Assembly: GCF_900105945.1 (NCBI RefSeq)
Contig: NZ_FNSO01000004.1
Span: 7,134,001 to 7,198,000 of the forward strand
Direction of reading: 5' to 3'
Length of the DNA stretch: 64,000 nucleotides
DNA from: Amycolatopsis tolypomycina
GTDB lineage: Bacteria; Actinomycetota; Actinomycetes; Mycobacteriales; Pseudonocardiaceae
Shown: in pieces, positions 4,851 through 27,364 of the stretch
Layout of the letters: the number at the start of each line of letters is the position of its first letter
Numbering within the stretch: position 1 is the first letter of the stretch
Made by a program: the position numbers and the translations under genes
The notes under the pieces: model-generated
Database searches by the model: none
What the model saw: only the letters and a program-made list of their open reading frames with translations
What the model was told of the DNA's origin: nothing

Positions 4851-5062
4851 CCCCAGCGCCCCAATGCGGCGTTCGGTGCATCCAACGCACCCAATGCGGC
4901 GTTCGGTGCATCCAACGCACCCAATGCGGCGTTCGGTGCATCCAACGCACCCAATGCGGCGTTCGGTGCATCCAACGCACCCAATGCGGCGTTCGGTGCA
5001 TCCAACGCACCCAATGCGGCGTTCGGTGCATCCAACGCACCCAACGCCACATTGGGGCGGTT
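4851..5062. repeat. Six-unit 30-bp tandem repeat enclosed by an inverted repeat, element A
   Basis: Six perfect copies of a 30-bp unit (first at 4861-4890, last ending 5040; unit begins CCAATGCGGCGTTCGGTGCA) are flanked by CCCAGCGCCCCAATGCGGC on the left and AACGCCACATTGGGGCGG on the right, which are complementary with one mismatch. Each unit contains GGTGC-ATCCAAC-GCACC, able to form a small hairpin, so a transcript could fold as a long closing stem enclosing six stem-loops. It starts right after the stop of the upstream gene. A related five-unit element is at 27187-27364, also right after a stop codon. A role in termination or mRNA 3' stabilisation is inference. This also accounts for most of the 320-bp gap between the two regulator genes. 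Confidence 0.9.
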
Positions 5063-5167
5063 GGGTGCGCGCAACCTTTCCGGGGTTGCCACGTCGGTAA
5101 GGTCACCTGAGTAGTAGTCCCTGGGGGATGGGGTCTGGGCGCGAGTCCCAGAGGGGACGGCAACGAC

Positions 5168-8100
5168 ATGCCAGGCGAAGACCCGGGCCTGCGGGTCGGG
5201 GTGCTCGGCCCGCTGCGGGCCTGGCGCGGGGCGGCCGAAATCGGCCTCGGCCCCGCCCGTCAGCGCGCCATCTTCGCGGTGCTCGCCGTCAACGCCGGCC
5301 GGCCCGTGCCGCGGGCCGAACTGATCGACGGTGTCTGGGGTGACTCCGCCCCGGCCAGCGTCGAAGGCAGCGTCCACACCTACGTCTCCGGGCTGCGGCG
5401 GGCGCTCGAGCCCGGCCGCTCGCGGTGGTCGGCCGCCAGCGTCCTCGTCTCGGACCCCGCCGGGTACTCGCTCCTGCTCGGCGAAGACGCGCTCGACGCG
5501 GCCCTCTTCGAACGGCACCGCGAACGCGCGCGACGGCACCTCGAGCAGGGTGACCCCGGGGCCGCCGTCGCCGAACTCGACGACGCTCTCGCGCTCTGGC
5601 AGGGCGAAGCCCTCTCCGGCGTGCCCGGCGGGTTCGCCGAACGGCACCGCGAATACCTGGCCGAACTCCGGCTGGACACCCTCGAACGGCGGGCCGAAGC
5701 CGTGCTCGCCCTCGGGGGGCACGTCGACCTCGCGCCGGAACTCGCCGTGCTGGCCGGGGAACACCCGCTGCGCGAGTCGCTGCGGGAATCGCTCATGCTC
5801 GCCCTCTACCGCAGCGGGCGGCCCGCCGACGCGCTCGACGTCTTCCGCGACGCCCGTGCCACGCTCGTCACGGAACTCGGCGTCGAACCCGGCGCCACGC
5901 TGCAACGGCTCCAGCGGCAGATCCTCGCCCAGGACCCCGCGCTCGACGCGCCCGCGCCGCCGGTCGTCGTCACCGGGCACCGGCTGTTCGGCCGGGAAGC
6001 CGAGCAGGCACGGCTCGCCGAGCTCGTCGCTGACGTCCGCGCCGGCCGGGGGCGGGCCGTCTGGATCGAAGGCGACGCCGGGATCGGCAAGTCCGCGCTG
6101 CTCACCTCCGCGCTGCCGGACGGCCCCGGCTTCCAGCGGCTCCAGGCGGCCGCCGACGAGCTGAGCACCCGGTTCCCGCTGCAGGTCGTGCTGGAGTGCC
6201 TGGCGATCGACGCGCACTCGCCCGACCCGCGGCGCGCGCGGGTGGCGAAGGAACTCGCGGGTGAAGGCCCGGCGCGGCGCAGCTGGGGCCCGGCCGACCC
6301 GGTGCTCGGCGCCGTCGACCGGCTGCTGGCCCTGGTCGACGAGCTGTGCGCGCAGTCGCCGCAGGTGCTGGTGCTCGACGACCTCCAGTGGGCCGACGAG
6401 GCTTCCGTGCTGGTCTGGCACCGGCTCTGCGCGGCGACCCGCCAGCTGCCGCTGCTGCTCGTGGCCGCGACGCGCCCGGCGCCGGACCGCGCCGAGCTCG
6501 CCCAGCTGCGGCGCGGCGTCCAGGCGCGGGACGGCGTCGTCCTCGACCTCGCGCCGCTGACCGGCGAGGACGTCGGCAGGCTGATCGAAGACCAGCTCGG
6601 GGCGCCGCCCGGGCCGGGGCTGCGCGAGCTGGCCGCCCGCGGTGCCGGGAACCCGTTGTACGTCAAGGAAATGGTCGACGTCCTGCGCCGCGCCGGCGCG
6701 GTGGAGGTGAGCGGCGGCCAGGCCGACGTCGACGACCCGGCGGAGTTCGAGGCCCCGCGGTCGCTGGTCGCCGCGGTCGACCGGCGGCTGGACTTCCTCA
6801 CGGCGCGGACCCAGGAAGTGCTGCGCTGGGGGGCGTTGCTGGGCATGGAGTTCGCCGTCGGCGACGTCGCCGCGGTGCTCGGCAGCCGGCCGTCCGACCT
6901 GCTGGCGCCGCTGGAAGAAGCCGTCGCGGCGAACGTGCTCATCGACACCGGGACGCAGCTGGCGTTCCGGCACCCGTTGCTGCGCCAGGCGTTGTACGAC
7001 CGGCTGCTGGCCGGGACGCGGGCGGCGCTGCACCGGCAGGCCGCCGAGGCGCTCGCCGGGATCGGCGCTCCCGTCAAGCGCGTGGCCGAGCAGCTGGTGG
7101 CCGCACCGGCCACAGTGGACGAATGGGTGCTGGACTGGCTCGCCGCGCACCACGCCGCCGTGTCGACCCGGGCCCCGCTGATCGCCGTCGAGCTGCTGGA
7201 ACGCGCGCTGGCCGCGTGCCCCGGCACCGACCCGCGCCGGGAGACGCTGCTCGTGGCCCTGGTCAAGGTGCTGTTCCGGCTGGAACGCAGCCCGGAAGCC
7301 CTGGCGCGGCAGGCACTCGACGTCGCCACCGAGCCGGACGCCGTCGAGGAGATGCGGCACGTGCTCGCGGCGCTGCGGCACCGCCGTGGCGACACCGAAG
7401 GCGCCGTCGCGACGCTGGCTGCCCAGGTCGACGACCCGGCCGTGCCGGAGCTCTGGCGGGTGAAACACCGGCAGCTCCTGGCGAACTTCCGCCGCGGCAG
7501 CCTGTCCGATTTGGACACCGCGGAGAAGACCGCGCACGAGACGAAAGCACGCGCCGGCGGCGACCGCTACCTGACCGCGCACGCGCTGCAGTCGTTGTGG
7601 CTGGTCGATTCGGTGCGCCGCGAGCACGACCGCGCGCTCGCCCACATCGACGCGGCGATCGAGGCCGTCGGCGACGAGCACGAGCTGGCCGACCTGCACC
7701 TGGACCTGCTCGACAACCGTGTCTTCACGCTGCAGAACCTCGACCGCCTTGCCGAGGCGGGCGAGGCCCTGCGCGCGGCGGGCGAAGTCGCGGCACGGCA
7801 CGCGTTGCCGGTCGGGCTGCAGGTGTCCGCCGCGGTGCACCGGTACTGGGAAGGCCGCTGGGACGAGGCGCTGGTCGAGCTGGACACGGTCATCGAGGAC
7901 GGCCCGGCGATCACGTTCTACGGCCTGCGCGAGCCGGGCCCGGCGGCGCTGCTGCTGCACGGCGTCGCGGCGCTGATCGCGGGCCGCCGCGACGACCGCG
8001 CCCAGGCGGCGGCCCACCTCGACGCGGCGGAGGAGTACGCGCCCGCCACCGGCGCCGAGCGCGAGAGCTTCGACTTCCTGCTGGTCGCCGACGCGCTGGC

Positions 8101-8800
8101 GGCCGAGCAGCGCGGCGACCGCGTCCGCGCGCTGGCGGTGCTGGAGCCGATCCTGAACCCGACGTACGCGCAGATGATGCTGCGCCACCAGTGGCTGCCG
8201 GCGTTCGTGCGGCTGGCGATGGAGCAGGACGACGTCGGCCGCGCCCGGCGCGCTTTGGCGGTGTGCGAGGAGGAAGCGGCGAAGGAGCGACGTCCGGCAC
8301 GGGCGCACGCGGCGGCGTCGTGGTGCCGCGGGCTGATCGAGGAGGACCCGGCGCCGGTGCTGGCGACGGCCGAGCACTTCCGCGCGGTCGGCCGCCGTCC
8401 GGAGCTGGCCTCGGCCCTGGAGGACGCGGCGGTGCTGCTGGCCCGCGCGGGCCGCCTGGACGCGGCGCACGCGGCATTCGAGGAGGCGGCCGAGCTGTAC
8501 ACGGCGCTGGCGGCGAGGTGGGACTTGCGGCGTGCGGAGACCCGGCTGCGCCGCCTGGGTGTCCGCCGGGGTGCCCTGTTCTCGCCGATCCGGCCGGGCC
8601 ACGGCTGGGAGTCGCTGACGCCGATCGAGGTCCGCATCGCCGGGCTGGTCGCGGAAGGCCGCTCCAACCCGGACATCGCGGCGGAGCTGTCCCTGCCGCG
8701 GCGGACGGTCCAGGCCCACGTGGCCCGCCTGCTGGGCAAGCTGGAGACGCCGTCACGTTCCGGCGTCGCCGACGCCGTCCGCCGGCGCGCGTCCGGCTGA
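5168..8800 (+). CDS. AfsR-like BTAD/ATPase regulator with C-terminal LuxR domain
   Basis: A 1210-residue regulator with an N-terminal winged helix (about 5-98), BTAD (about 103-250), an ATPase domain with a canonical Walker A (GDAGIGKS, residues 302-309) and Walker B ('VLVLDDLQWAD'), a long TPR-like region, and a LuxR/GerE helix-turn-helix at residues 1149-1210 ('SLTPIEVRIAGLVAEG', 'PRRTVQAHVARLLGKL'). It therefore carries two different DNA-binding domains, one at each end. Such STAND-type proteins act as ATP-dependent activators of secondary metabolism or stress genes. Start at ATG 5168 after AGAGGGGACGGC. It is a tandem paralogue of the gene at 1601-4846, which has lost both the Walker lysine and the LuxR domain. 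A 36-bp perfect palindrome follows the stop. Confidence 0.92.
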   Translation: MPGEDPGLRVGVLGPLRAWRGAAEIGLGPARQRAIFAVLAVNAGRPVPRAELIDGVWGDSAPASVEGSVHTYVSGLRRALEPGRSRWSAASVLVSDPAGYSLLLGEDALDAALFERHRERARRHLEQGDPGAAVAELDDALALWQGEALSGVPGGFAERHREYLAELRLDTLERRAEAVLALGGHVDLAPELAVLAGEHPLRESLRESLMLALYRSGRPADALDVFRDARATLVTELGVEPGATLQRLQRQILAQDPALDAPAPPVVVTGHRLFGREAEQARLAELVADVRAGRGRAVWIEGDAGIGKSALLTSALPDGPGFQRLQAAADELSTRFPLQVVLECLAIDAHSPDPRRARVAKELAGEGPARRSWGPADPVLGAVDRLLALVDELCAQSPQVLVLDDLQWADEASVLVWHRLCAATRQLPLLLVAATRPAPDRAELAQLRRGVQARDGVVLDLAPLTGEDVGRLIEDQLGAPPGPGLRELAARGAGNPLYVKEMVDVLRRAGAVEVSGGQADVDDPAEFEAPRSLVAAVDRRLDFLTARTQEVLRWGALLGMEFAVGDVAAVLGSRPSDLLAPLEEAVAANVLIDTGTQLAFRHPLLRQALYDRLLAGTRAALHRQAAEALAGIGAPVKRVAEQLVAAPATVDEWVLDWLAAHHAAVSTRAPLIAVELLERALAACPGTDPRRETLLVALVKVLFRLERSPEALARQALDVATEPDAVEEMRHVLAALRHRRGDTEGAVATLAAQVDDPAVPELWRVKHRQLLANFRRGSLSDLDTAEKTAHETKARAGGDRYLTAHALQSLWLVDSVRREHDRALAHIDAAIEAVGDEHELADLHLDLLDNRVFTLQNLDRLAEAGEALRAAGEVAARHALPVGLQVSAAVHRYWEGRWDEALVELDTVIEDGPAITFYGLREPGPAALLLHGVAALIAGRRDDRAQAAAHLDAAEEYAPATGAERESFDFLLVADALAAEQRGDRVRALAVLEPILNPTYAQMMLRHQWLPAFVRLAMEQDDVGRARRALAVCEEEAAKERRPARAHAAASWCRGLIEEDPAPVLATAEHFRAVGRRPELASALEDAAVLLARAGRLDAAHAAFEEAAELYTALAARWDLRRAETRLRRLGVRRGALFSPIRPGHGWESLTPIEVRIAGLVAEGRSNPDIAAELSLPRRTVQAHVARLLGKLETPSRSGVADAVRRRASG

Positions 8801-8820
8801 CCTGGAACTACTGGAAAACC

Positions 8821-8856
8821 CGGTGAGCACCGACCCGGCCGGGTCGGTGCTCACCG
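8821..8856. terminator. Bidirectional terminator, 36-bp perfect palindrome
   Basis: Two 18-bp arms (left arm CGGTGAGCACCGACCCGG) are exactly complementary with no loop and lie between two converging genes ending at 8800 and 8876. Position and symmetry fit a shared terminator; there is no clear T run, as is common in high-GC actinobacteria. Confidence 0.8.
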
Positions 8857-8875
8857 AACTACTGGCGTGCCCGTG

Positions 8876-9331
8876 TCAGCAGGGCGTGGCCGACAGCTGG
8901 ATGTACCAGACCGGATCCCAGTTGACGTAGTCGCCTGTCCCCGCCCACTGGCACCGGATCAGCCTGCCGTTCTGGTCGAGAAGCCGCATGCCCGCGTTCC
9001 CGGTTTGGCTGTTGACGACGGAGCCCGTGTCGCCGGTGAAGTTGTTCAGCGAATACGTGCCGTAGTTGTAGAACTGGAACTCCCAGCCACCGTTGGACCC
9101 CCAGCTCGGCGTGGCACAGGCGTAGCCGGTCGGGCAGTCGTGCACCTCGCCGACCGAGACCCAGACGCGCCGGGACGGAGCCGGCGACGTCGACGGCTCG
9201 GCGGCCGCGACGGACGCGGACTGAGCGGCGCCACTGACTGCGGGCGCGGCCTGCGCGGGCAGGACACCGGCGGCCAGGAAGCCCACCACGATTCCGATGA
9301 CCGCCACGATCCGGCGCTGTCGAATCCTCAC
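8876..9331 (-). CDS. Secreted peptidase inhibitor I36-like protein
   Basis: A 151-residue precursor. Residues 1-30 are a signal peptide ('RIRQRRIVAVIG' then a hydrophobic run ending 'LPAQA'). After an Ala/Ser/Pro-rich spacer, residues about 58-151 have the Cys-rich beta-crystallin-like pattern of inhibitor family I36: 'CPTGYACATPSWG', 'GWEFQFYNYGTYSLNNFTG' and 'GSVVNSQTGNAGMRLLDQNG'. Family members inhibit extracellular metalloproteases or act as secreted structural proteins. The GTG at 9331 is chosen because AGGGGG lies 8 bp upstream and it places the signal peptide at the N-terminus; a longer upstream frame has no signal. It is followed by the convergent terminator at 8821-8856. Confidence 0.7.
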   Translation of the reverse strand: MRIRQRRIVAVIGIVVGFLAAGVLPAQAAPAVSGAAQSASVAAAEPSTSPAPSRRVWVSVGEVHDCPTGYACATPSWGSNGGWEFQFYNYGTYSLNNFTGDTGSVVNSQTGNAGMRLLDQNGRLIRCQWAGTGDYVNWDPVWYIQLSATPC

Positions 9332-9405
9332 TGCATATCCCCCTAGGTTGGTGTGAACCGGACCGTACTGGCATTCCGGACGAAGATCAAGTTCGGAATC
9401 ACGGA

Positions 9406-10743
9406 TCACAGCGCGTTGGCCTTGGCGACCCGGCCCAGGTAGCGGCCCGACTCCTTGACCGTCCGCCGCTGGGTCTCGAAGTCGACGTGGACCAGGCCGA
9501 ACCGTTGCGTGTACCCCATCGCCCACTCGAAGTTGTCCAGCAGCGACCACGCGAAGTACCCGCGGACGTCGACCCCGAGGTCAAGGGCGTCGCGCACCGC
9601 CCGCAGGTGCTCCATGAAGTAGTTCACCCGGGCCGCGTCGTACACGCGGCCGTCCACGACGGTGTCCACAAAGGACGCTCCGTTTTCCGCCACCACCAGC
9701 GGGAGATCGGAACGCGAAGAAATCCACGTGAGCAGCGAAGTGAGCGTCGACGGCGACTGCTCCCAGCCGAACGCCGTCACCGGCGGCCGCGCCGGCAGGA
9801 CGTCCAAGCCGCGCAACGTCGGCAGCGGGCAGTTGCTCGGCGCCTGCGGGTCCTCGAGCGGCGTCACACGGGCCGGGGCGTAGTAGTTGACGCCCAGCCA
9901 GTCGATCGGGGCCGCGATGGTGTCCGTGTCGCCGTCGCGGACGCACTCGACGAACCGGCCCGCGGCCGCCACCACGTCCGAGGGGTAGCCGCGGCCCAGC
10001 ACCGGGTCCAGGAAGAACCGGTTGTGGATGCCGTCGAACTTCCGGGCCGCCTCGGCGTGCGCCGGTGACGAACCGTCCGCGATCGCCGGCGCGAAGTTCA
10101 GCGCCAGGGAGAACTCGTGACCCGGCCCGGTGAGCGCGCGGGTCGCCAGGCCGTGCGCCAGCAGCAGGTGGTGGGCCGCGACCAGCGCCGTGCCGTGGTC
10201 CTGGCCACCGGGTGCGTGCACGCCGCTGCCGTAGCCGAGGAACGCCGCGCAGAACGGCTCGTTGATCGTCGTCCACTGGCGCACGCGGTCGCCGAGCGCC
10301 GCGTGCACGACGGCGGCGTAGTCGGCGAACCGCGAAGCCGTGTCCCGCGAGGGCCAGCCGCCCGCGTCTTCGAGCGCCTGCGGCAGGTCCCAGTGGTAGA
10401 GCGTCAGCACCGGCACGATGTCCCGGCTCAGCAGCTCGTCGACCAGCCGGTCGTAGAAGGCGAGCCCGGCCGCGGACGGCGTCCGGCCGTCCGGCATCAC
10501 CCGCGGCCAGGCCACCGAAAACCGGTACGCGTTCAGGCCGAGGCCGGCCAGCAGGCCGATGTCGTCGGCGTAGCGGTGGTAGTGGTCGCAGGCGACGGCA
10601 CCGGTCGCACCGCCGAGCACCTTGCCTTCGGTCGCCGCGAAGGTGTCCCAGATGGACGGTCCGCGGCCGCCTTCGGTGACAGCGCCCTCGACCTGGTAGG
10701 ACGCGGTGGCCGCGCCCCACAGGAAGCCCGCCGGGAAGGTCAT
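9406..10743 (-). CDS. GH1 beta-glucosidase
   Basis: A 445-residue cytoplasmic family 1 glycoside hydrolase that hydrolyses beta-linked disaccharides such as cellobiose. It opens with the GH1 N-terminal signature 'FLWGAATASYQVEGA', has the acid/base Glu162 in 'TTINEP', the substrate-site Tyr in 'GVNYYAPARV' (about 287), the nucleophile Glu353 in 'VVAENGASF', and the C-terminal 'GYFAWSLLDNFEWAMGY'. Length and motifs match full-length family members. ATG 10743 follows AAAGGGG and overlaps the stop of the upstream permease by 4 bp (ATGA), making it the last gene of a sugar-uptake operon. No secretion signal is present, so imported oligosaccharide is cleaved inside the cell. The exact aglycone preference cannot be read from sequence. 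Confidence 0.95.
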   Translation of the reverse strand: MTFPAGFLWGAATASYQVEGAVTEGGRGPSIWDTFAATEGKVLGGATGAVACDHYHRYADDIGLLAGLGLNAYRFSVAWPRVMPDGRTPSAAGLAFYDRLVDELLSRDIVPVLTLYHWDLPQALEDAGGWPSRDTASRFADYAAVVHAALGDRVRQWTTINEPFCAAFLGYGSGVHAPGGQDHGTALVAAHHLLLAHGLATRALTGPGHEFSLALNFAPAIADGSSPAHAEAARKFDGIHNRFFLDPVLGRGYPSDVVAAAGRFVECVRDGDTDTIAAPIDWLGVNYYAPARVTPLEDPQAPSNCPLPTLRGLDVLPARPPVTAFGWEQSPSTLTSLLTWISSRSDLPLVVAENGASFVDTVVDGRVYDAARVNYFMEHLRAVRDALDLGVDVRGYFAWSLLDNFEWAMGYTQRFGLVHVDFETQRRTVKESGRYLGRVAKANAL

Positions 10744-12457: not shown

Positions 12458-12463
12458 GCGCGG

Positions 12464-18490: not shown

Positions 18491-19438
18491 ATGACCACCC
18501 TGGACGACGTCGACCGGGCGCTGGTCCACGCACTGCACCTCGACGGCCGGGCCCCGTTCACGAAGATCGGCGACGTCCTCGGCGTCTCGACGCAGACCGT
18601 GGCCCGGCGCTACCGCCGGCTCCGCGAGGAGGCGTCGCTTCGCGTGGTGGGCCTGCCGGATCCGCAGCGGGCGGGGCAGGCGGAGTGGATGGTCCGCCTG
18701 ACGGCGACGCCGCACACGGCACAGGACCTCGCCCAGGCGCTGGCCCGCCGCGCGGACACGGCGTGGATCAAGCTGATGTCGGGCGGCACGGAGATCTGCG
18801 TGAACGTCCACACCCCGGCGGCGAGCGACCACGCCCTGCTGCTGCGCGACATCCCGCGCACGGCGAGCATCACGGCGGTCTCGGCGCACCAGCTGCTGCA
18901 CCGCTACTTCGGCGGCCCGACGGCGTGGCTGGGGCGGGCCAACGCCCTCGACGCGGCCCAGATCGCGGCGCTCACCCCGGTCCGCCCGGGCCCGGGCAAG
19001 CCACTGACCCGGGAGGACGACGCCCTGATGGCGGCGTTGCAGCGCGACGGCCGCACGGGCTTGGCCGAGCTGGCCGCGGCCACGGGCTGGTCGCCGGCGA
19101 CCGTCGCCCGCCGGCTGGCCGACCTCCAGGCGGGCGGAACGGTGTTCTTCGACCTGGAGATCGCCCCGGAGCCACTGGGGGCGACCACACAGGCGCTGCT
19201 GTGGATGGCGGTGGCACCGGCCCGGCTGGACCGGGTGGCCCGGACGCTGGCCACCCACCCGGAGCTGGCCCTGGTGGCCGCAACGACCGGGCCGGCGAAC
19301 CTGGTGGCGCTGGCCCTCTGCCCGGACGCGGCGGCCCTGCACCGGTACTTGACGCGGCGGCTGGGGGCGCTGGACGCGATCCGGACGCTGGAGACGGCGC
19401 CGGTGCTGCGCACGGTGAAGGCGGCGGCTTCGCGCTGA
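18491..19438 (+). CDS. Lrp/AsnC family transcriptional regulator (double-length)
   Basis: A 315-residue regulator consisting of two AsnC-type units: helix-turn-helix 1 ('LDDVDRALVHALHLDGRAPF', 'STQTVARRYRRLREE') plus ligand-binding half to about residue 145, then helix-turn-helix 2 near 175-215 ('LTREDDALMAALQRDGR', 'SPATVARRLADLQAGG') plus a second alpha/beta domain. Such double-length Lrp proteins are common in actinobacteria. It is divergent from the MFS exporter and is its likely regulator. ATG 18491 gives the usual family N-terminus; ATG 18482 is an alternative, and neither has a well-spaced ribosome site. A 44-bp tandem repeat begins 5 bp after its stop. Confidence 0.88.
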   Translation: MTTLDDVDRALVHALHLDGRAPFTKIGDVLGVSTQTVARRYRRLREEASLRVVGLPDPQRAGQAEWMVRLTATPHTAQDLAQALARRADTAWIKLMSGGTEICVNVHTPAASDHALLLRDIPRTASITAVSAHQLLHRYFGGPTAWLGRANALDAAQIAALTPVRPGPGKPLTREDDALMAALQRDGRTGLAELAAATGWSPATVARRLADLQAGGTVFFDLEIAPEPLGATTQALLWMAVAPARLDRVARTLATHPELALVAATTGPANLVALALCPDAAALHRYLTRRLGALDAIRTLETAPVLRTVKAAASR

Positions 19439-19443
19439 GGGGG

Positions 19444-19596
19444 CGGCTTGCCGCAGGTCGCGGCTTCGCCCTGAGAGGCGGGGCGGGCGGCTTGCCGCAG
19501 GTCGCGGCTTCGCCCTGAGAGGCGGGGCGGGCGGCTTGCCGCAGGTCGCGGCTTCGCCCTGAGAGGCGGGGCGGGCGGCTTGGCGCAGGTCGCGAC
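19444..19596. repeat. 44-bp tandem repeat, three full copies and a partial
   Basis: Units start at 19444, 19488 and 19532 (each beginning CGGCTTGCCGCAGGTCGCGG), with a partial, diverged unit from 19576. Full units are identical. The array fills most of the space between the Lrp-type gene and the converging zinc-finger gene. The first unit also resembles the last bases of the Lrp coding region (GCTTCGC-CTGAG), suggesting the array grew by duplication from the gene end. Confidence 0.9.
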
Positions 19597-19680
19597 GGGT
19601 CACAGGAAGCCCGGTGTCCCGGAAACCGCAGTTCGGCCGTGGGCGCTCGCTCGGGACGAGCCGGCGCGCCCGTCGGTGTC

Positions 19681-19857
19681 CTAAGTGGACTTCACCTGGA
19701 CCAGGTGGTCGAGCATGCCGCGGACGGCCTCGAACTCCCGGACCTCCTGGCGGCAGTCCGGGCACGCCGAAAGGTGCCGCTCCACCCGTGCCGCGTCGGC
19801 GGCGTCGAGCAACCCCAGGCTGTACGCCCCGAGGTCGGTCCGGTCGTACCGGCCCAT
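19681..19857 (-). CDS. Short zinc-finger anti-sigma-like protein
   Basis: A 58-residue cytoplasmic protein with the zinc-binding anti-sigma pattern His28-x3-Cys32-x2-Cys35 ('VERHLSACPDCRQEV') preceded by the typical helix 'LGAYSLGLLDAADAARV'. Anti-sigma factors of this type usually continue into a membrane segment; this one stops about 20 residues after the zinc site, so it is a soluble minimal form. No sigma factor gene is adjacent. ATG 19857 follows GGAG by about 9 bp. Its partner is not identifiable from this window. Confidence 0.75.
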   Translation of the reverse strand: MGRYDRTDLGAYSLGLLDAADAARVERHLSACPDCRQEVREFEAVRGMLDHLVQVKST

Positions 19858-20419: not shown

Positions 20420-20855
20420 CGCGCCGGGCGGGCACGCGGCTCCCGCGCCGCGTCGCCCGCCCGCGGCTCCCGGCTCTCGGCTCCCGCGCCGCATCGCCCA
20501 CCCGCGACCCGCGGCCCCCGATGCCGCGGCTCCCGCCTCCCGGCTCCCCGGTGCCACGTCGCCCGCCCGCAGCCCGCGGCTGCCACAGCCGATCGCGCAC
20601 AGCCCCCGGCGCCACGTCGGCCACTCGCGGCCCGCGGCTACCGCAGCCGATCACGCACGGCCCCGGCGCCGTGTCCCCCGCCCGCGGCCCCCGGCTCCAC
20701 GTCGGCCACCCGCGGCCCCGGCCCCCGGCCCCGTCGACCACCCGCGGCCCCCGGCCCCCGGCGCCACGTCCCTGCCCGCAGCCCGCGGCCCCCGCAGCCG
20801 ATCGCGCACCGCGACAGGGACGTTCGCGCACAACCCTTGCCCACAGCCCCCGGCA
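20420..20855. repeat. Degenerate CCGCGGCYCC-rich low-complexity region
   Basis: About 435 bp built from imperfect reiterations of GCCCGCGGCTCCCGGC-like words and of a longer motif containing CAGCCGATCGCGCAC (seen near 20586, 20646 with one change, and 20799) and GCCACGTCGGCCAC (near 20611 and 20700). Frames are open on both strands simply because stop codons are rare in such sequence; there is no ribosome site or protein-like composition, so it is treated as noncoding. Confidence 0.75.
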
Positions 20856-20858
20856 ATC

Positions 20859-20889
20859 TTGACTGGACTAGACCAATCTGCTCTAGTGA
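20859..20889 (+). promoter_or_regulatory. Chitinase promoter with DasR-like operator
   Basis: ACTGGACTAGACCAAT at 20862-20877 closely matches the DasR-responsive element, a 16-bp palindrome of the form A(C/G)TGGTCTAGACCA(C/G)T known upstream of actinomycete chitinase genes. It overlaps a possible -35 (TTGACT, 20859-20864), with TAGTGA at 20884-20889 as a possible -10. The chitinase starts about 100 bp downstream. DasR is released by glucosamine-6-phosphate, so induction by chitin breakdown products is expected (inference from family knowledge). Confidence 0.65.
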
Positions 20890-20987
20890 CCGTTGTCACG
20901 TTCGTCTCGGCCGGATGAGCACACCCACCTTCGACGCCGGGCGCGCCAGCGTCCGGGTTCTGTCGTGGCCGAAGGAGTGAGCGAGTC

Positions 20988-22058
20988 TTGAGAAGACGTC
21001 TTGTCGCGGTCCTGTCCGCCGTCGCCGCCGTTGCCGGGCTCGTGTTCGGCGTTCCCGCCGTCAGCGGGCACGCCGCACAGGCCGCCGCCGCCGCGTGCAG
21101 TGCGCCGAACTGGGTCGCCGGCCAGTGGTACGACGTCGGCGCCGTCGTCCGCTACACCAACGGTGGCTACTACCGCGCCAAAAACGCCAATCCGGGCTAC
21201 GACCCGGTCATCAGCACCTGGTACTGGGAGCCCTACAGCTGTGACGGCGGGGGCGGCACCACCTGCAGCTACCCGAACTGGGTGGCCGGCCAGTGGTACG
21301 ACGTCGGCGCCGTCGTCCGCTACACCAACGGCGGCTACTACCGCGCCAAAAACGCCAATCCGGGCTACGACCCGGTCATCAGCACCTGGTACTGGGAGCC
21401 CTACAACTGCGGCGGCGGCACCGATCCCGGCAACCCGGGCGCGTTCGTGGTGAGCGAAACGCAGTTCAACCAGATCTTCCCGGGCCGGAACTCCTTCTAC
21501 ACCTACAGCGGCCTCACCGCGGCCCTGTCGGCGTACCCCGGCTTCGCGAACACCGGCAGCGACACGGTGAAGAAGCAGGAAGCCGCGGCGTTCCTCGCCA
21601 ACGTCAACCACGAAACCGGTGGCCTCGTCCACATCGTCGAGCAGAACACCGCGAACTACCCGCACTACTGCGACTGGAACCAGCCCTACGGCTGCCCGGC
21701 AGGCCAAGCCGCCTACTACGGCCGCGGCCCGATCCAGCTGAGCTGGAACTTCAACTACAAGGCCGCCGGCGACGCGCTCGGCATCGACCTGCTCGGCAAC
21801 CCGTGGCAGGTCGAGCAGAACTCGGCCGTCGCCTGGAAGACCGGGCTCTGGTACTGGAACACCCAGAGCGGCCCCGGCACCATGACCCCGCACAACGCGA
21901 TGGTCAACGGCCGCGGTTTCGGCGAGACCATCCGCAGCATCAACGGCTCCATCGAGTGCAACGGCGGCAACCCCGCCCAGGTGCAGAGCCGCGTCGACAA
22001 GTACCGCCAGATCACGGCGGTCCTCGGCGTCGACCCCGGCGCCAACCTGTACTGCTGA
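20988..22058 (+). CDS. Secreted GH19 chitinase with two CBM5/12 modules
   Basis: A 356-residue secreted enzyme: signal peptide (1-33), two nearly identical chitin-binding CBM5/12 modules (about 38-85 and 94-141, each 'NWVAGQWYDVGAVVRYTNGG' onward with the 'WYWEPY' end), a short Gly/Pro linker, and a GH19 domain (about 155-356). Glu209 in 'NVNHETGG' is the catalytic acid and 'YYGRGPIQLSWNFNY' is the GH19 signature. It cleaves chitin endo-wise outside the cell. The TTG start at 20988 is preceded by GAAGGAG (20971-20977). A DasR-like site lies upstream and a perfect hairpin follows the stop. The DNA of the two modules differs at only a few bases, a sign of recent duplication. Confidence 0.95.
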   Translation: MRRRLVAVLSAVAAVAGLVFGVPAVSGHAAQAAAAACSAPNWVAGQWYDVGAVVRYTNGGYYRAKNANPGYDPVISTWYWEPYSCDGGGGTTCSYPNWVAGQWYDVGAVVRYTNGGYYRAKNANPGYDPVISTWYWEPYNCGGGTDPGNPGAFVVSETQFNQIFPGRNSFYTYSGLTAALSAYPGFANTGSDTVKKQEAAAFLANVNHETGGLVHIVEQNTANYPHYCDWNQPYGCPAGQAAYYGRGPIQLSWNFNYKAAGDALGIDLLGNPWQVEQNSAVAWKTGLWYWNTQSGPGTMTPHNAMVNGRGFGETIRSINGSIECNGGNPAQVQSRVDKYRQITAVLGVDPGANLYC

Positions 22059-22063
22059 GCCGA

Positions 22064-22092
22064 GGGCGGGCGGGGTGTCACCCCGCCCGCCC
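22064..22092. terminator. Bidirectional terminator between chitinase and thioesterase genes
   Basis: Perfect 12-bp arms GGGCGGGCGGGG / CCCCGCCCGCCC with a 5-nt loop, located between two converging stop codons (22058 and 22095). Confidence 0.85.
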
Positions 22093-22094
22093 GC

Positions 22095-22841
22095 TCAGCC
22101 GGCCAGCCGCCGCGCGATCAGCTCGATGACCGCCGCGGCGTGGTTGTTGAGGTAGAAGTGCCCACCCGGGTACTTCTTCAGCTCGAACTCCGCCGACGTC
22201 CGCTGCGCCCACTGGCTCGCCTCGGCTTCGGTGACCTTCGGGTCGTCGTCCCCGATCAGCGCCACGATCGGGCAGCCGACGTCCGGCCCCGGCCGGTAGT
22301 GGTACAGCTCCGCGGCCTTGTAGTCGCTGCGCAGCGCCGGCAGCACCAGTGCGCGGATGTCTTCGTCGTCCAGCACCGCCGAGTCGGTGCCACCGAGCCG
22401 CTTGACCTCGGCCAGGAGTGCCTCGTCGCCCTTTTCGTGGATCCGCTCGTCGCGGACCGTCGAGGGCGCGCGGCGCCCGGAGACGAACAGCGTGAGCAGC
22501 CGCGTGCCCCGCGCCTCGAGCCGCCGCGCGACCTCGAACGCCAGGCTGGCGCCCATGCTGTGGCCGAAGAACGCGACCGGCCCGGTGACCTCGGGAGCGA
22601 GCACGTCCGCCAGCCGGTCGGCGAGCACGAACAGGTCGTCCACGGGGGCCTCGGCGTGCCTGTCCTGGCGGCCCGGGTACTGCACGGCGAGCACCTCCAC
22701 CGCGGGCGCCAGCGCCGCCGACACGGGGTGGAAGTAGCTCGCCGATCCGCCGGCGTACGGGAAGCACACGAGCCGCGCCGCCGCGGCGGGCGCCGGGTGG
22801 AAGCGCCGGACCCACTGCGAGGCGTCGAGCGAAATCGTCAT
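22095..22841 (-). CDS. Type II thioesterase (alpha/beta hydrolase)
   Basis: A 248-residue thioesterase of the kind that edits acyl groups from carrier proteins of polyketide or non-ribosomal peptide synthases. N-terminal 'LVCFPYAGGSASYF' forms the oxyanion strand, Ser95 in 'GHSMGA' is the nucleophile, the acid is in 'GDDDPKV' (about 198-200), and His228 in 'PGGHFYL' completes the triad. No synthase genes are in the window, so it acts in trans or belongs to a cluster elsewhere. ATG 22841 is chosen; a TTG at 22850 is an alternative. The perfect inverted repeat at 22925-22971 lies upstream. Confidence 0.92.
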   Translation of the reverse strand: MTISLDASQWVRRFHPAPAAAARLVCFPYAGGSASYFHPVSAALAPAVEVLAVQYPGRQDRHAEAPVDDLFVLADRLADVLAPEVTGPVAFFGHSMGASLAFEVARRLEARGTRLLTLFVSGRRAPSTVRDERIHEKGDEALLAEVKRLGGTDSAVLDDEDIRALVLPALRSDYKAAELYHYRPGPDVGCPIVALIGDDDPKVTEAEASQWAQRTSAEFELKKYPGGHFYLNNHAAAVIELIARRLAG

Positions 22842-22924
22842 GGCCCCCAATCTGGCAGGCCGCCGGGCCGCCGTCGACCCCCTAGCCTGCGCAGTCCGGA
22901 AGCCCGGCAGGCGTCGCCGATGCC

Positions 22925-22971
22925 ATGAAAGAGTCGTTCATGACGTCTGGTGTCATGAACGACTCTTTCAT
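22925..22971. repeat. Perfect 20-bp inverted repeat (hairpin)
   Basis: Arms ATGAAAGAGTCGTTCATGAC (22925-22944) and its exact complement (22952-22971) enclose a 7-nt loop. The arms are strikingly AT-richer than the surrounding DNA. It lies 26 bp downstream of the dioxygenase stop and about 84 bp upstream of the thioesterase start, both on the reverse strand. Likely a terminator for the dioxygenase gene or a small mobile palindrome; which is not clear. Confidence 0.8.
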
Positions 22972-22996
22972 GACGTTCGAGCCGCTGCCGGACCGG

Positions 22997-23812
22997 TCAC
23001 TCCGCCCGCCAGAGCGCCGGGACGGCCGGCGGTTCCCAGCCCGCCTGGGCGGTGTGCGGCTGCAGGCACACGTAACCGCGGCCGCCGTAGGTGACCCGCG
23101 TGCCCGCCGCGTACGCGGTGCCCACGGCCCAGGACGTGCCCCCGGGCGGGGTGGACGTGGACGTCGGCCGCGTCGACGTCGGGGTCTGCGGGACGTCGAG
23201 CACGAAGTCGAACGCGGCTTCCTTCGCCGACCCGTTGTCCCGCACGGTCATCAGCAGCCGCGCGTCGAAGATCGTGTCGGTGTTGTTGCGCGGCTCGCCG
23301 GGGAAGTAGAGCTGCGTGGTCAGCACCGGCCGGCCGGGTGCCTGCACCTTCACGTGGATGTGCCGGGTCCGGCCCGGGTAGAGGCCCGGCACGATCGTGG
23401 ACAGCGTGAACGCGCCCTGGGCGTTGGTGTACTGGTGCCCGCGGAAGGTGTAGCCGGTGTTGTCGTAGGCGCCGTTGACGTCCGCCTGCCAGAAGTCGAG
23501 CAGCGCGCGGTTGATCGGCAGGCACGCGCGGCCGAAGACGTACCCGGTGACGGTCAGCCGGGTGCCCGGCGTCCCGGGGGTGACGAGGTTGGTCCGTTCG
23601 GGCGAGTTCGGCTTGAAGTACGGTCCCTCGGTCTGCGCGATCGTCGGATCGTCGTCGTCGTGGCACGCCGGGGTCAGCTCCGGCGCGGTGCCGCCGGCGG
23701 CCGTGGTGCGGGCGAGCGCGGGGCCGCCGATCAACGCGACCGGCGCGGCGACACCCGCGGCGAGCGCGGCCTTCAGCACGGTCTTGCGGCTGAGCTTGTT
23801 CTCTTCGTCCAT
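22997..23812 (-). CDS. Secreted intradiol ring-cleavage dioxygenase with CBM5/12
   Basis: A 271-residue exported enzyme. The N-terminus 'LSRKTVLK' followed by a hydrophobic stretch resembles a Tat signal (RK in place of RR). The dioxygenase core has the Fe(III) ligands Tyr116 ('DVNGAYDN'), Tyr145 ('VPGLYPGRTR'), His151 and His153 ('RHIHVKV'), with a shortened loop between the second Tyr and the His pair. After a Pro/Thr linker ('TPTSTRPTSTSTPPGG') comes a C-terminal CBM5/12 ('WAVGTAYAAGTRVTYGG', 'GWEPP'). Secreted catechol dioxygenases with such modules are known in biomass-degrading Streptomyces (SACTE_2871 type) and open aromatic rings near polysaccharide. ATG 23812 follows AGGAGC. The AraC-type gene is just upstream on the same strand. 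Confidence 0.9.
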   Translation of the reverse strand: MDEENKLSRKTVLKAALAAGVAAPVALIGGPALARTTAAGGTAPELTPACHDDDDPTIAQTEGPYFKPNSPERTNLVTPGTPGTRLTVTGYVFGRACLPINRALLDFWQADVNGAYDNTGYTFRGHQYTNAQGAFTLSTIVPGLYPGRTRHIHVKVQAPGRPVLTTQLYFPGEPRNNTDTIFDARLLMTVRDNGSAKEAAFDFVLDVPQTPTSTRPTSTSTPPGGTSWAVGTAYAAGTRVTYGGRGYVCLQPHTAQAGWEPPAVPALWRAE

Positions 23813-23896
23813 GCCTGCTCCTGGTGGGCGGGGGGAAGATCCGGGATCACCTCGAACGTAGGCAGGCACCGGCCGGGCGGCGATGGACTGGACCGG

Positions 23897-24787
23897 TCAG
23901 TCGTGGTGCTTCTCCCCGCCACGGCGGAAGTCGCCAGGGCTCAACCCGGTTTCCCGGCGGAAGAACCGGCAGAAGTAGGCGGGATCGGCGAAACCGACCC
24001 GGCTCGCCACCTGCCGGACCGTCAGGTCCGTCCGGAGCAGGAACCGTTGCGCCTCCCGGATCCGCGTCTCCCGCAACAGCTGCGCGGCCGTGCGGCCGGT
24101 CGCCGCCTTCACCGCTTCGGTGAGGTGGCCGGGCGTGACGCCGAGGCGTTCGGCGTGCGCGCTCACCGACCACAGGCCGGGTTCGGGGTGGCCGGCGAGC
24201 CGGACGAACTCCGCCGCCAGCGCGCCCGCGGGCGCCGGCCGTGGCGTGCCCAGCAGGCGGCCCGCGCGCACGACCAGGACGTGCACCAGCGCCCGCAGCA
24301 CCGACTCGGTCCCCTCGCCGCCGCCGCGGAACTCCTCCTCCAGGTCGGCGATCAGCCGCCTGACACCGGCGTCGGCGTGGGCGTCCAGGCGCAGCCACGG
24401 CCGTTCGCCCAGCCGCCGCAGGAGCTCGCGGTCGGCCGGGTGGTCGAGGAGGAAGTCGTCGGTGAACAGCACGACGTGGCCGGTGAGGCCCGCGACGCCC
24501 GCCCACTGGTGCACCTGGCCGGGCGCGATGACGCCGAGGTGCGGCGGCCGCAGCGGCCAGCGCGCGGTGTCGACGACGTGCGCGCCCGTGCCGCCGGTGA
24601 CGTGGACGAGCTCGTAGAACGTGTGCCGGTGCGGGAAATCCGCGCGGGACAGCGGCCCGATCGCGTCGAACGTGCCGACGGCGAACGGCGGCGCGTGCGG
24701 TGCGGGCACCTCGAGGCGGTGCAGCGGCAGCTCCCCCGGCCGCGGGGTCCGGCAGGGCGTCCCTGGCGGAACGGTCGTACCGCGCAT
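23897..24787 (-). CDS. AraC family transcriptional regulator
   Basis: A 296-residue regulator with an N-terminal cupin-type ligand domain ('PHRHTFYELVHVTGGTG', 'LGVIAPGQVHQW') and a C-terminal pair of helix-turn-helices ('HAERLGVTPGHLTEAVKAAT', 'VRQVASRVGFADPAYFCRFF', 'SPGDFRR'). It lies 84 bp upstream of the dioxygenase gene in the same orientation and is its probable activator. A near-palindrome GACTGGACCGGTCAGTC (23886-23902) overlaps its stop codon and precedes the dioxygenase. No ribosome site stands out at ATG 24787. Confidence 0.92.
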   Translation of the reverse strand: MRGTTVPPGTPCRTPRPGELPLHRLEVPAPHAPPFAVGTFDAIGPLSRADFPHRHTFYELVHVTGGTGAHVVDTARWPLRPPHLGVIAPGQVHQWAGVAGLTGHVVLFTDDFLLDHPADRELLRRLGERPWLRLDAHADAGVRRLIADLEEEFRGGGEGTESVLRALVHVLVVRAGRLLGTPRPAPAGALAAEFVRLAGHPEPGLWSVSAHAERLGVTPGHLTEAVKAATGRTAAQLLRETRIREAQRFLLRTDLTVRQVASRVGFADPAYFCRFFRRETGLSPGDFRRGGEKHHD

Positions 24788-24872
24788 GGCCCGGAAGTCT
24801 AGATCGGTTCGCGGGCGGTTCGCCGGTTTTGCCCCGATGATCGCAATCCGATCGTCGGGTACCGGACACGAA

Positions 24873-24905
24873 AACGGGGCCGGTCCACAGTGGACCAGCC
24901 CCGTT
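24873..24905 (-). terminator. Intrinsic-type terminator after thioester-domain gene
   Basis: On the reverse strand a 16-bp stem (AACGGGGCTGGTCCAC with one mismatch in the partner arm) is followed by TTTTCG. It begins 14 bp after the stop of the gene at 24919. Confidence 0.8.
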
Positions 24906-24918
24906 CGGTGGTACTGCG

Positions 24919-26067
24919 TTACGCGCGGCTGCGGCGGCGGTTCACCAGCAGCATCAGCGCGCCGCCGCCGAGCAGCAGGCCGCCGATGGCGAACGGAACC
25001 GCGGCGTCGACACCGGTGTTGGCGAGGTCGCCGCCACCGGACGGGGCGCCACCGGGCGTGCTGGGCGCGGTGGTGGCCGGGGCACCGGCCTCGGTCCAGC
25101 TGGCGGACGCCTTTGCGGCCACCTGGGTCTTCTCCGAGTCGGCGACGATCAGCGACTGCGCCGGCTGGCTCGCGTAGTTCTCCGCGACGAAGAGGCGGCC
25201 GGTGGCCAGCTCGCCGGTGACCTTCAGGGCGAACGAGCCCTTGCCCGGCTTGGTGCCGGCCGGGACGTCGAGGAACAGCTTGCTGCCGTCCTTGACGTCG
25301 GCGGTCTTCAGCTCCTTGCCGTCCTTGTCGGTGACCTTGACGCCCTCGGGCAGCTCGGTGGTCAGCGACGTGATGTCACCCGAGGTGGCGACGTCGAACG
25401 GGCCGATCTTGGTGCCGGCCTTGCCCTCGGTCTTCGGGCCCGCGATGTTCAGGGTCGGCTTCGGCTGCGCGCCGATGCCCTTGTTCTGGTCGCCGATCAG
25501 GTAGCTGTACAGCGCGGCGACGTCGGCGTTGTTCTCGGCCGGGTTGGGCTCGGCCAGCGGCTTCTTCAGGTCGAGGTTCACGTTGTCGCTGAAGTGCCAC
25601 ACCGCGGCCTGCGTCGCGGCGATGCCCTCGCGCTCGGAGATGCCGTCGTGGACCTTGATGCCCTGCTTGGCGAGGGCGGCTTCCACGTCGGCGAGCTTGA
25701 GGCCCGGGTAGCCGTGGTGCAGCACCCAGTTGAGCTTGTCGCTGTTGTCGTTGAAGGCCGCCTTGGCCTTCGGGTACTTGTTCCAGGGCGTCTCGACCAT
25801 GTCGACGTCGGTGCGCATGGCGACGGTGATCTCGACGCAGTAGAGCTTGAGCGACTTGCCGTCCGACAGCTTGAAGCCGAACAGCTTGGCGATGGGGTCG
25901 CCGCCACCTTCGAGGTTGATCCGGTAGCCGACCGTGCCCGCCTCTTCGATGACGCGGCCGCGCGCGGCGCCGTCGTCCGCGAGGGCGGCGGGGGCGCCGA
26001 CCATGACCGCGGCGGCCGCGGCGAGCACCGCGATCCCGCCACGCACCAGAGCTGACCTGACCTGCAT
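24919..26067 (-). CDS. Cell-wall-anchored thioester-domain (TQXA) adhesin-like protein
   Basis: A 382-residue surface protein. Residues 1-30 are a signal peptide ending 'PAALA'. A thioester domain spans about 35-190: Cys77 in 'KLYCVEI' and Gln153 in 'ATQAAVWHFSD' are the residues that form the Cys-Gln internal thioester in this family. A beta-sandwich follows (about 205-330), then a Ala/Thr/Pro-rich linker, the sortase signal LANTG (348-352, class E type), a hydrophobic helix and the tail 'NRRRSRA'. Such proteins attach covalently to surfaces or host molecules. ATG 26067 follows AGGAG. Flanked by a good terminator; no sortase gene is adjacent. Confidence 0.9.
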   Translation of the reverse strand: MQVRSALVRGGIAVLAAAAAVMVGAPAALADDGAARGRVIEEAGTVGYRINLEGGGDPIAKLFGFKLSDGKSLKLYCVEITVAMRTDVDMVETPWNKYPKAKAAFNDNSDKLNWVLHHGYPGLKLADVEAALAKQGIKVHDGISEREGIAATQAAVWHFSDNVNLDLKKPLAEPNPAENNADVAALYSYLIGDQNKGIGAQPKPTLNIAGPKTEGKAGTKIGPFDVATSGDITSLTTELPEGVKVTDKDGKELKTADVKDGSKLFLDVPAGTKPGKGSFALKVTGELATGRLFVAENYASQPAQSLIVADSEKTQVAAKASASWTEAGAPATTAPSTPGGAPSGGGDLANTGVDAAVPFAIGGLLLGGGALMLLVNRRRSRA

Positions 26068-26260
26068 AAATCTCCTATCCGAGCCCGAACCACACCGGAG
26101 GGACCCCGTGGGATCACAATCCCCGACCACGGCGGCCACTGATTCGGGTGAGTGATCACCCGGTCAAGCGATACCGGAGCATACACAGACCTCACAGGGC
26201 TACTCAGGGTGCCCCCATAAACACGATTCCACTCGGAAAGCCCCTGAATAGGGGGCGGAT

Positions 26261-27100
26261 TTACGTGTGGAAATACCCGCCGAACAGGATTTCGGCGATC
26301 TTCGTGGTGGTCTCCCGGCCGACCGCGTCACCGCCGGAGACGACTCGGGTGTCGTTCATCAGGGCGAGGGTGTACCGCTCGCCGGGGCCCGCGAAACCGA
26401 CGGAGTTCATGATCCACGAGCCGTCGTCGTTGTCATCCGACCAGCCGTTCTTGTTCCCGGGCCGCGCGGCCGCCCCGGCACCCCAGACGCCCCACTGCTG
26501 GTTGGGGTCCACGGTCCGCAGTTCCCCGGCGAGGTGATCGCGGTGCCGGCCGGCCAGGACGTACCCGATCAGCCGGTCCAGGTCGTTCGCCGTGGTGCGG
26601 ATCCAGCCCCAGTGGTGGGGGTGGCGATCGCTGAACCGCATGTCGGTCATTCCGTATGCCGGAAACCGCCGGCCGAATTCGGCTTCGCCACCAAAACGGG
26701 TCCACAACGCGTGGGCGGCGTCATCGTCACTCGAATGGAGCATTCGGTGCAGCAGATCGCGATCTTCCGCGGTCAAGGTGACGGCTTTGGCGTCTTCGCG
26801 CTCCAGCAGGTCGACGGCCATGGCGAGTTTCGGCGTCGAGCAGGCCCAGATCAGCGTGCCCGCGGCCGGGCTGCGGTAGACGGCGCCGGTGGAGCGGTCC
26901 CGGAGGACGATGCCGGTCACCCCGGGCCGGCTGTCGGCGTAGGCCTGCGCCCGGCCGATGCGCGCGCGCAGGTCGGCACCGAAGGGATCAGCGGCGGCCG
27001 GCTCGGGCCGGTCGGCGGCCGAGCCGGACCGGTCGGCGGGCCCCGGCGACGGCGCCAGGGCGAACGCCGCCAGCAGCGCGGTGAGCAGGAGCTTGCCCAT
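26261..27100 (-). CDS. Secreted class A beta-lactamase-like serine hydrolase
   Basis: A 279-residue precursor with a signal peptide (1-about 22). The penicillin-binding fold motifs are S88-T-P-K91 ('IWACSTPKLAMA') for SxxK, 'HSSDDDAAHAL' (124-127) in the SDN position, and 'GNKNGWSDD' in the KTG region, where the usual K-T/S-G is not exact. The last point argues against an efficient beta-lactamase and for a related transpeptidase or esterase-like wall enzyme. Start ATG 27100. The downstream intergenic space (26068-26260) separates it from the thioester protein; the 30-bp repeat element B lies just upstream. Confidence 0.85.
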   Translation of the reverse strand: MGKLLLTALLAAFALAPSPGPADRSGSAADRPEPAAADPFGADLRARIGRAQAYADSRPGVTGIVLRDRSTGAVYRSPAAGTLIWACSTPKLAMAVDLLEREDAKAVTLTAEDRDLLHRMLHSSDDDAAHALWTRFGGEAEFGRRFPAYGMTDMRFSDRHPHHWGWIRTTANDLDRLIGYVLAGRHRDHLAGELRTVDPNQQWGVWGAGAAARPGNKNGWSDDNDDGSWIMNSVGFAGPGERYTLALMNDTRVVSGGDAVGRETTTKIAEILFGGYFHT

Positions 27101-27186
27101 GGAGGTCCCCCGGGTGCCGGAGCGGGTGTTGGCGCCCTGAAGACTCGCACGGACGGCGGCCGGGAGGCGAGCGCCGCCGGTCCCCA

Positions 27187-27364
27187 GCGCCCCAATGTGG
27201 CGTTCGGTGCGTTGAGCGCACCCAATGTGGCGTTCGGTGCATCCAACGCACCCAAAGTGGCGTTCGGTGCATCCAACGCACCCAATGTGGCGTTCGGTGC
27301 ATCCAACGCAACCAATGTGGCGTTCGGTGCATCCAACGCAACCAACGCCACATTGGGGCGCTTG
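27187..27364. repeat. Five-unit 30-bp tandem repeat enclosed by an inverted repeat, element B
   Basis: Five 30-bp units (27191-27340; standard unit starts CCCAATGTGGCGTTCGGTGC) with small changes: unit 1 has GCGTTGAGCGCA at its end, unit 3 has AAAG for AATG, unit 5 starts ACC. The ends CAGCGCCCCAATGTGGCGTT and AACGCCACATTGGGGCGCTTG are complementary over 20 bp with one mismatch. It is the same family as element A at 4851-5062 (unit differs mainly GCGG versus GTGG), and again starts about 10 bp after a stop codon, here that of the cellulase on the reverse strand. Confidence 0.9.

Follow-up and report, generated by a model that had tools for sequence, protein, structure and literature searches.

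The Rickettsia palindromic elements (RPEs) insert in frame into protein-coding genes, and the EFAR repeats of Enterococcus faecalis are modular palindromes that lie between convergent genes and have been shown to act as bidirectional terminators. Repetitive extragenic palindromic sequences (REPs) are reported to lie downstream of or between convergent or unidirectional open reading frames (ORFs), with some copies inside genes (PMC3733652), to serve as targets of insertion sequences (PMC1525189) and to be obligately associated with RAYT transposases (PMC2817692). Amycolatopsis mediterranei appears among satellite-bearing genomes (PMC6749651). In this work we describe a repeat family, F1, that is represented by two elements, A and B, in a stretch of 64,000 nucleotides from Amycolatopsis tolypomycina, the whole of which we call the window. 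Our best reading, to which we give a probability of roughly three in four, is that A and B are copies of a non-autonomous mobile palindrome that is REP-like without depending on a RAYT, that undergoes local amplification of its inner unit, that persists where it does little harm and that probably forms hairpins at 3′ ends.

Compared with the EFAR repeats, as these are generally known, F1 differs in its host and in the architecture of its units, and termination by F1 is something that we only infer. The miniature inverted-repeat transposable elements (MITEs) resemble F1 in that it is non-autonomous as far as seen, has a high copy number and carries terminal inverted repeats; it differs from them in that no target-site duplication was found, nor a parent transposon among the two neighbouring pairs inspected, no genome-wide search having been made. 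F1 can be likened to the RPEs by description, not by sequence, being also palindromic and also found in frame in coding genes, where nine internal copies leave the ORF intact. However, it occurs in a different phylum, eight of the nine internal coding copies are in polyketide synthase (PKS) or nonribosomal peptide synthetase (NRPS) genes, and the CGTC tag reported for the R. conorii RPE (PMC3733652) is not enriched at F1 ends. In placement and form F1 also resembles REPs, BIMEs and REPINs, which are short, high-copy intergenic palindromes placed downstream of genes and between convergent ones, with genic copies, use as insertion sequence targets and complementary arm changes (PMC3733652, PMC2817692, PMC3116915). 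F1 is likewise high in copy number, palindromic and located mainly behind genes, but there is no Y1/RAYT gene in 80 genomes of the genus and no GTAG or CGTC tag, and its 30-bp units, from 1 to 17 of them, are arranged in tandem and in the same orientation within one pair of closing arms.

Architecture and abundance of F1

The features of the two elements and their neighbouring genes are as follows (window coordinates; genes from gene models and Pfam matches).

4844 to 4846, plus strand: stop codon (TGA) of gene 1601-4846, a BTAD/AAA regulator, with element A 9 nt behind it
4856 to 5059, plus strand: element A, family F1, with outer arm GCGCC, six 30-bp units and closing arm AACGCCACATTGGGGCG
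4862 to 5041, plus strand: the six 30-bp units of element A, with the loop ATCCAA in 6 of 6
5042 to 5059, plus strand: closing arm of element A
5168 to 8800, plus strand: BTAD/AAA/LuxR-type regulator gene downstream of element A
26261 to 27100, minus strand: Beta-lactamase2-family gene, its start 86 nt from the other side of element B
27187 to 27361, plus strand: element B, family F1, five units enclosed by outer arms
27193 to 27342, plus strand: the five 30-bp units of element B; loop 1 is GTTGAG, loops 2 to 5 are ATCCAA
27374 to 28864, minus strand: cellulase gene (GH5 + CBM2), stop at 27374-27376, 12 nt from element B

The original prediction was of two related 30-bp repeat elements, each close to the stop codon of an unrelated gene, and both are present as described. 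Element A lies between two regulator genes on the same strand, behind the first and in front of the second. The cellulase gene is read from the minus strand, so it is on that strand that element B comes after the stop codon. The general architecture is GCGCCC-(CAATGYGGCGTT-hairpin)n-AACGCCACATTG-GGGCGC, where the hairpin is CGGTGCG-N5-CGCACC, and Tandem Repeats Finder reports a period of 30 for both elements (98% matches in A, 92% in B). The claimed common closing inverted repeat is found in both, with one blemish: the units of A carry C (AATGC) and the closing arm keeps A (CCACATTG), which leaves one C-A mismatch in the closing stem. Similarly, the hairpin GGTGC-N7-GCACC that was assigned to each unit holds in general and is imperfect in the last two units of B, which end in GCAACC. 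The pattern CCAATGYGGCGTTCGGTGC, with up to 3 mismatches, has 13 matches in the window, all of them within A and B, against a mean of 0.09 in dinucleotide shuffles, and Rfam 15 yields no match above the gathering score in the window. The units are contiguous, 30 bp long and without unique spacers, which agrees with the earlier statement that this is not a CRISPR array.

A search for further copies in the genome of A. tolypomycina (10.36 Mb, 4 contigs, here C1 to C4) returned 323+255 matches to the F1 unit pattern with up to 2 mismatches (control 0+1), which outnumber the units because the closing arms match on the reverse strand too. The F1 end pattern returned 152+153 matches (control 1+0), and since it can match both ends of an element we estimate very roughly 150 to 250 elements in this genome. 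F1 has spread through the genome and, as shown below, has mostly settled just behind genes and sometimes inside genes with the frame intact.

For closer study, 80 stretches of 20 kb were taken around matches to the unit and end patterns; gene context played no part in the choice. The match lists behind this sample held about 100 places each, ordered by fewest mismatches and then by coordinate; the sample therefore favours intact sequences, as well as contigs C1, C2 and C3 and the initial 5.6 Mb of C4. Together with the window it comprises 1.664 Mb and 1452 gene models (89% coding), and holds 102 elements with at least 2 arms; we excluded 60 more clusters that have only a single arm (47 lie in gene models) as likely due to chance. 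Two units are the rule (68 of the 102 elements, about 85-95 bp in a typical case), with one unit in 8, three in 11 and a range of 1 to 17.

In the 26 arrays of at least 3 units, internal units of the same array are 96.1% identical, with 49% of pairs identical throughout, compared with 87.3% and 6.9% between arrays. The 68 two-unit elements comprise 55 distinct sequences, one of which occurs 8 times and another 4 times. This pattern fits whole-element copying plus local expansion of units. The amplification of the inner unit that had been proposed is thereby borne out, as it is by the six and five units of A and B against two in those relatives that carry F1 at the corresponding sites.

Placement relative to genes

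Among the 102 elements, 50 lie between convergent genes, 35 between tandem and 6 between divergent genes, while 11 overlap a gene model; 85 of the 91 intergenic elements are behind at least one gene. We compared the intergenic elements with random insertion into the same gaps after removal of the elements (2000 draws). Convergent gaps host 50 of the 91, where 15.3 are expected (maximum 28), and divergent gaps host 6, where 30.2 are expected (minimum 12). Furthermore, 61 of the 91 are within 30 bp of a stop codon, against an expectation of 13.0 (maximum 27). The strong bias toward positions after stop codons is as predicted. In tandem pairs neither orientation is preferred (18 same, 16 opposite).

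Positions of the kind that F1 occupies are often held by other hairpins. Among the 70 F1-free convergent gaps between 25 and 300 bp in length, 51 contain a perfect hairpin 10 bp or longer, as do none of 70 such gaps after shuffling; the figures for F1-free divergent and tandem gaps are 12 of 181 and 58 of 405. A further 39 convergent pairs have a gap of less than 25 bp.

A 420-kb region of contig C3 (2000-421999), which is highly syntenic with the related genome G057, contains a single F1 element, fewer than the rest of the genome suggests; this is possibly a conserved core that excludes F1.

Orthologous sites in related genomes

Two points go beyond the original prediction: F1 is absent or replaced at orthologous sites, and some copies are in frame in genes. 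For the first we surveyed four sites, assigning occupants to families by reading. The query for site A matched in 80 of 80 genomes of the genus, and the best 30 loci were fetched, all of which could be mapped. F1 occupies 4 of these, one of four other hairpin types 11 and none of these 12, while 3 are empty, with the stop running directly into a region conserved before the next gene. The stretch directly in front of gene 5168-8800, from about GCGCAACC, is present also in the orthologs with an empty site. The F1 copies have six units in A. tolypomycina and two each in G070, G017 and G057, the last with GGCCTT arms and a flipped closing arm. One of the four other hairpin types, GTGAATGGCACATTG, is without a site in the sample from the A. 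tolypomycina genome.

Site B was mapped in 13 of 30 fetched loci: F1 in 2 (five units in A. tolypomycina; two units, again with GGCCTT, in G057), another hairpin type in 1 and none of these in 10. At the lipB site A. tolypomycina has an F1-type element, as do three of the 17 loci L121-L137, namely L124, L125 and L131; in 13 of the remaining 14 there is a different perfect hairpin, 11 bp or longer. The pepA site falls within 12 of the 17 loci: L125 and L131 have F1 there, L124 and L127 have F1 interrupted by the insertion sequence described below (in L127 with a hairpin of another type close by), L123, L126 and L137 have repeats of other types, and five have none of these. F1 is therefore not always the occupant, and occupants differ between species. 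Judged by these site comparisons, F1 comes and goes, as the relatives show.

A. tolypomycina C3 and G057 were also compared directly (420 and 400 kb, with aligned blocks 94.5% identical). There is one F1 element per side, too few for a paired-site survey. Stretches of about 55-75 bp with the palindrome GGGGGTCCGGGTGGCGGAGCCCC occur in contig C1 of G057 and are absent at the matching places of C3 (joined positions 169309, 217134, 288516, 344845 and 397518).

Distribution among genomes

With up to 1 mismatch, the unit pattern matches in 41 of the 80 genus genomes, with 1 to 444 hits, the highest being A. tolypomycina itself; a genome without a match lacks that dialect only, as G013 has no hits with the unit pattern and 13 with a broader one. 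Arm dialects include GGCCTT in G006 and GGCATT in G009. The broader pattern matches in 41 of 346 genomes of the family, patchily over 12 of 46 genera, and several of these genomes have single hits that may be due to chance. Genomes with at least 9 hits are found in the genera g1 (that of A. tolypomycina), g20, g27, g28 and g41. For example, G189 in g27 has 128 hits, compared with 0-2 in the seven other g27 genomes sampled.

We considered carriage by plasmids or phages and rejected it, as a two-unit F1 query had no match among 72,556 plasmid or 50,697 phage records. Three viral contigs carry one exact F1 unit each. In the titles and abstract openings on Amycolatopsis or Actinobacteria repeats, among the matches listed, no F1-like family is described, and the 13-base F1 arm was not found among the literature sequence-word matches listed.

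Predicted fold and arm covariation

The canonical two-unit element is predicted to fold into one long hairpin (-66.7 kcal/mol). A multi-branched RNA with a row of hairpins, as originally envisaged for A and B, is not favoured: such folds have -78.6 (A) and -60.3 kcal/mol (B), against minima of -115.6 and -106.7 kcal/mol, which belong to long interrupted rods and are lower by 37 and 46 kcal/mol. With longer flanks the z-scores of the folds are -6.6 (A) and -8.1 (B), and for A this longer fold does not pair the outer arms with each other.

Covariation was assessed in an alignment (A1) of a unit and its closing arm, with 42 of 43 different 45-base hairpin sites from 20 genomes, those of A. tolypomycina being included only in part. 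Pairs are formed in 91.5% of cells, against 89.7% in shuffles, the former an upper value because right arms that fail a loose pattern are omitted (including flipped closing arms, such as those of L034 and L303). Cells with a double change number 24, against 13.8 in shuffles, and none of 500 shuffles reached that number (slid pairings gave 0-8), though related sequences can exceed such shuffles without structure. At column 11 with column 35, for example, there are 21 GC, 9 CG, 4 AU and 2 GU pairs and 6 unpaired cells. Two of five covariation measures, double-change pairs and pair types, give no distinction. In the aligned copies the arms change together between genomes, and such pairing can be maintained at the level of DNA.

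Copies inside genes

Eleven elements lie in gene models. L108 merely overlaps the end of an ORF, L100 forms a C-terminal tail, and the other nine are internal and in frame, with the host ORF staying open. Eight of these nine sit in ORFs longer than 2200 amino acids that Pfam matches assign to PKS or NRPS. For three of them the place of the element among the domains was determined. In L107 it spans about residues 585-617, after the KS-AT linker domain (521-585) and before the AT domain, which starts at 622. In L086 (about 397-428) it lies between AT and KS. The element of L111 (about 1199-1231) shares its last part with the beginning of a partial Rossmann-domain match (1218-1322), and so is not in a clean linker.

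The ninth copy is in a 2-oxoacid dehydrogenase E2 gene, between the lipoyl (6-78) and E3-binding (168-203) domains and ahead of the catalytic domain (221-449). This gene was matched in 80 of 80 genus genomes. In the 30 loci fetched, by classes assigned by reading, the linker is Ala/Pro-rich in 25 (G057 among them), an F1 peptide such as PNVALVASNAPNATLG in 3 (A. tolypomycina, G049 and G033) and a different repeat-like sequence in 2 (G071 and G079). The in-frame copies in PKS/NRPS genes and in the E2 linker are a source of new protein sequence, and some of the coding copies fall in enzymes of the antibiotic-making kind.

Insertion sequences at F1 elements

Two pairs of F1 copies about 1 kb apart were inspected for an autonomous element and neither is one, no genome-wide search having been made. 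The L061 pair is a single F1 element split by an insertion sequence with the ends GAGGTTTTCTCAGTAG, and the L087 pair flanks sequence without clear similarity to it. The insertion sequence is placed as follows.

L061, 9480 to 10445: insertion sequence with GAGGTTTTCTCAGTAG ends; ends also in L045, L047, L063, L071, L072 and L084

Its ends are within an F1 arm in 14 of 14 cases in the A. tolypomycina loci scanned and in 4 of 4 in two relatives (L124 and L127). The loci scanned were chosen around F1, so other targets of this insertion sequence may be missed. The ends are mostly about 0.95 kb apart (0.4-2.3 kb overall) and an ATT duplication is probable. There are 23 such ends in the A. tolypomycina genome, and some in 27 of the 80 genus genomes, one of them G003, in which F1 itself has no match.

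Another repeat, TCCATCCATGCCCCCGCC...GGAGGCGCTTCGCGCCGC, sits inside F1 loops at L029 and at L112 10220-10285 in A. tolypomycina, at L125 12203-12346 and at L127 17177-17382. The core of this repeat is present at 7 sites in 2.06 Mb of A. tolypomycina sequence, and stands alone at two places where G057 is without it.

Discussion

We propose that whole F1 elements, typically with two units, would be copied to new places by machinery other than a Y1 (RAYT) transposase; the dispersed identical copies, the empty orthologous sites and the patchy distribution point to such copying. After arrival the inner 30-bp unit would expand or shrink locally, probably via slippage on the hairpin, as the homogeneity of the arrays suggests. 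Copies would persist at places where they do little harm: immediately after stop codons, most of all where two genes converge, and also within some genes, in frame. Behind stops F1 would take a position that is otherwise held by terminator-like hairpins, and its transcripts would be expected to fold into a very stable long hairpin, probably shaping 3′ ends.

Several results weigh against this account. No mobilizer was found: Y1_Tnp (PF01797) has no match in the 80 genus genomes, with 5 of 14 control genomes positive. Target-site duplication at k = 4-8 does not exceed that of shuffled flanks, so the mechanism of insertion is not visible. The changes at the E2 linker and at 3′ sites look as much like replacement as insertion, and the 80 loci were selected for intact end sequences, by list order. 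In the covariation analysis, the 5 pairs with a double change are reached by 34 of 500 shuffles and the 7 pair types by 415 of 500. A role at 3′ ends has further difficulties. There are empty orthologous sites at A and copies within translated genes, a U-tract (TTTT within 20 nt) follows only 4 of the 35 tandem elements, and there are no terminator-like matches at A and B. An intrinsic terminator, that is a hairpin followed by a U-tract, was rejected on the last two results, and the original statement that these are not ordinary terminators is upheld. On the sense strand, tandem elements have nearly equal numbers of G-U and A-C mismatches (11 and 13), and with no bias we also rejected selection on RNA by way of G-U pairs.

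A tentative alternative, which we consider to fall short of an even chance, is that F1 is primarily a bidirectional terminator or a stabilizer of mRNA 3′ ends under selection, with its homogeneity due to gene conversion and not to mobility. The strong preference for the ends of convergent genes and for places no more than 30 bp from a stop would follow, as would the other hairpins that share this niche and replace F1 at orthologous 3′ sites, the very stable predicted folds and the arms that keep pairing despite sequence change. Yet it sits poorly with the nine sampled copies in frame inside ORFs, the 3 of 30 empty orthologs of site A and the 39 convergent pairs with a gap below 25 bp. Nor does F1 have a U-tract or an orientation bias in tandem pairs, and 39 of the 80 genus genomes are without a unit-pattern match, although G013 has its 13 broader-pattern hits. 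The finding of different hairpins at one post-stop site, alongside empty sites, makes terminator function versus mere tolerance a testable question.

The mobile palindrome that we favour might also be one of several. We hypothesize, as a speculative and rather doubtful extension, that a number of palindrome families are swapped at the same tolerant positions (post-stop sites and a protein linker) by a common, hairpin-recognizing, RAYT-independent copying process. F1 would then be the member with an added slippage-prone inner unit, so that it expands where it stands and offers its own insertion sequence a place to land.

F1 is unlikely to be a MITE belonging to an insertion sequence of the DDE type, with terminal inverted repeats and a target duplication. 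The long terminal inverted repeat, the high copy number and the patchy distribution are what one would look for, but a MITE with target duplication was rejected as no duplication signal was found. The insertion sequence that is associated with F1 has different ends, GAGGTTTTCTCAGTAG, and these lie within F1 arms, so F1 is its target and not its derivative.

We think it very improbable that F1 is a classical REP or BIME moved, now or formerly, by a RAYT, despite the palindromic form, high copy number, 3′-end bias, use as an insertion sequence target and occasional genic copies, all of which are reported for REPs (PMC3733652, PMC1525189). Two defining features of REPs failed, the Y1 transposase and the tag, and F1 is therefore not filed as one. 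GTAG/CTAC is found in the flanks of 9 of 102 elements, against 6 in control flanks, and CGTC/GACG in 8, against 38. Furthermore, the units are in tandem in one orientation and do not alternate. A large, species-patchy family in a genus without a detected Y1 transposase is a clean case for the study of repeat self-copying.

Finally, a chance or mutational expansion of simple sequence at two sites without biological unity, suggested by tandem repeats being common in the window, can be dismissed in view of hundreds of dispersed matches with the same arms, near-zero counts in shuffles and the presence of F1 across species, in 41 of 80 genus genomes.

Other repeats in the same sequences

Other repeats are found at gene ends in the 2.06 Mb of A. 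tolypomycina sequence: a ATGAACGACTCTTTC/GAATGACTCATTC type at 24 sites, a CACTTTCACGTGAAAGTG type at 24, CGCGTGATTG arrays at 9 and a GTGAGTGGTAAGGC type at 6 (examples are at L055 13559-13641, L105 3719-3768 and L065 3188-3442). The window itself contains a near-perfect 44-bp tandem repeat of 3.5 copies at 19441-19594, in the convergent gap 19438-19681, and a 168-bp tandem duplication (96%) at 21105-21418 within gene 21042-22058.

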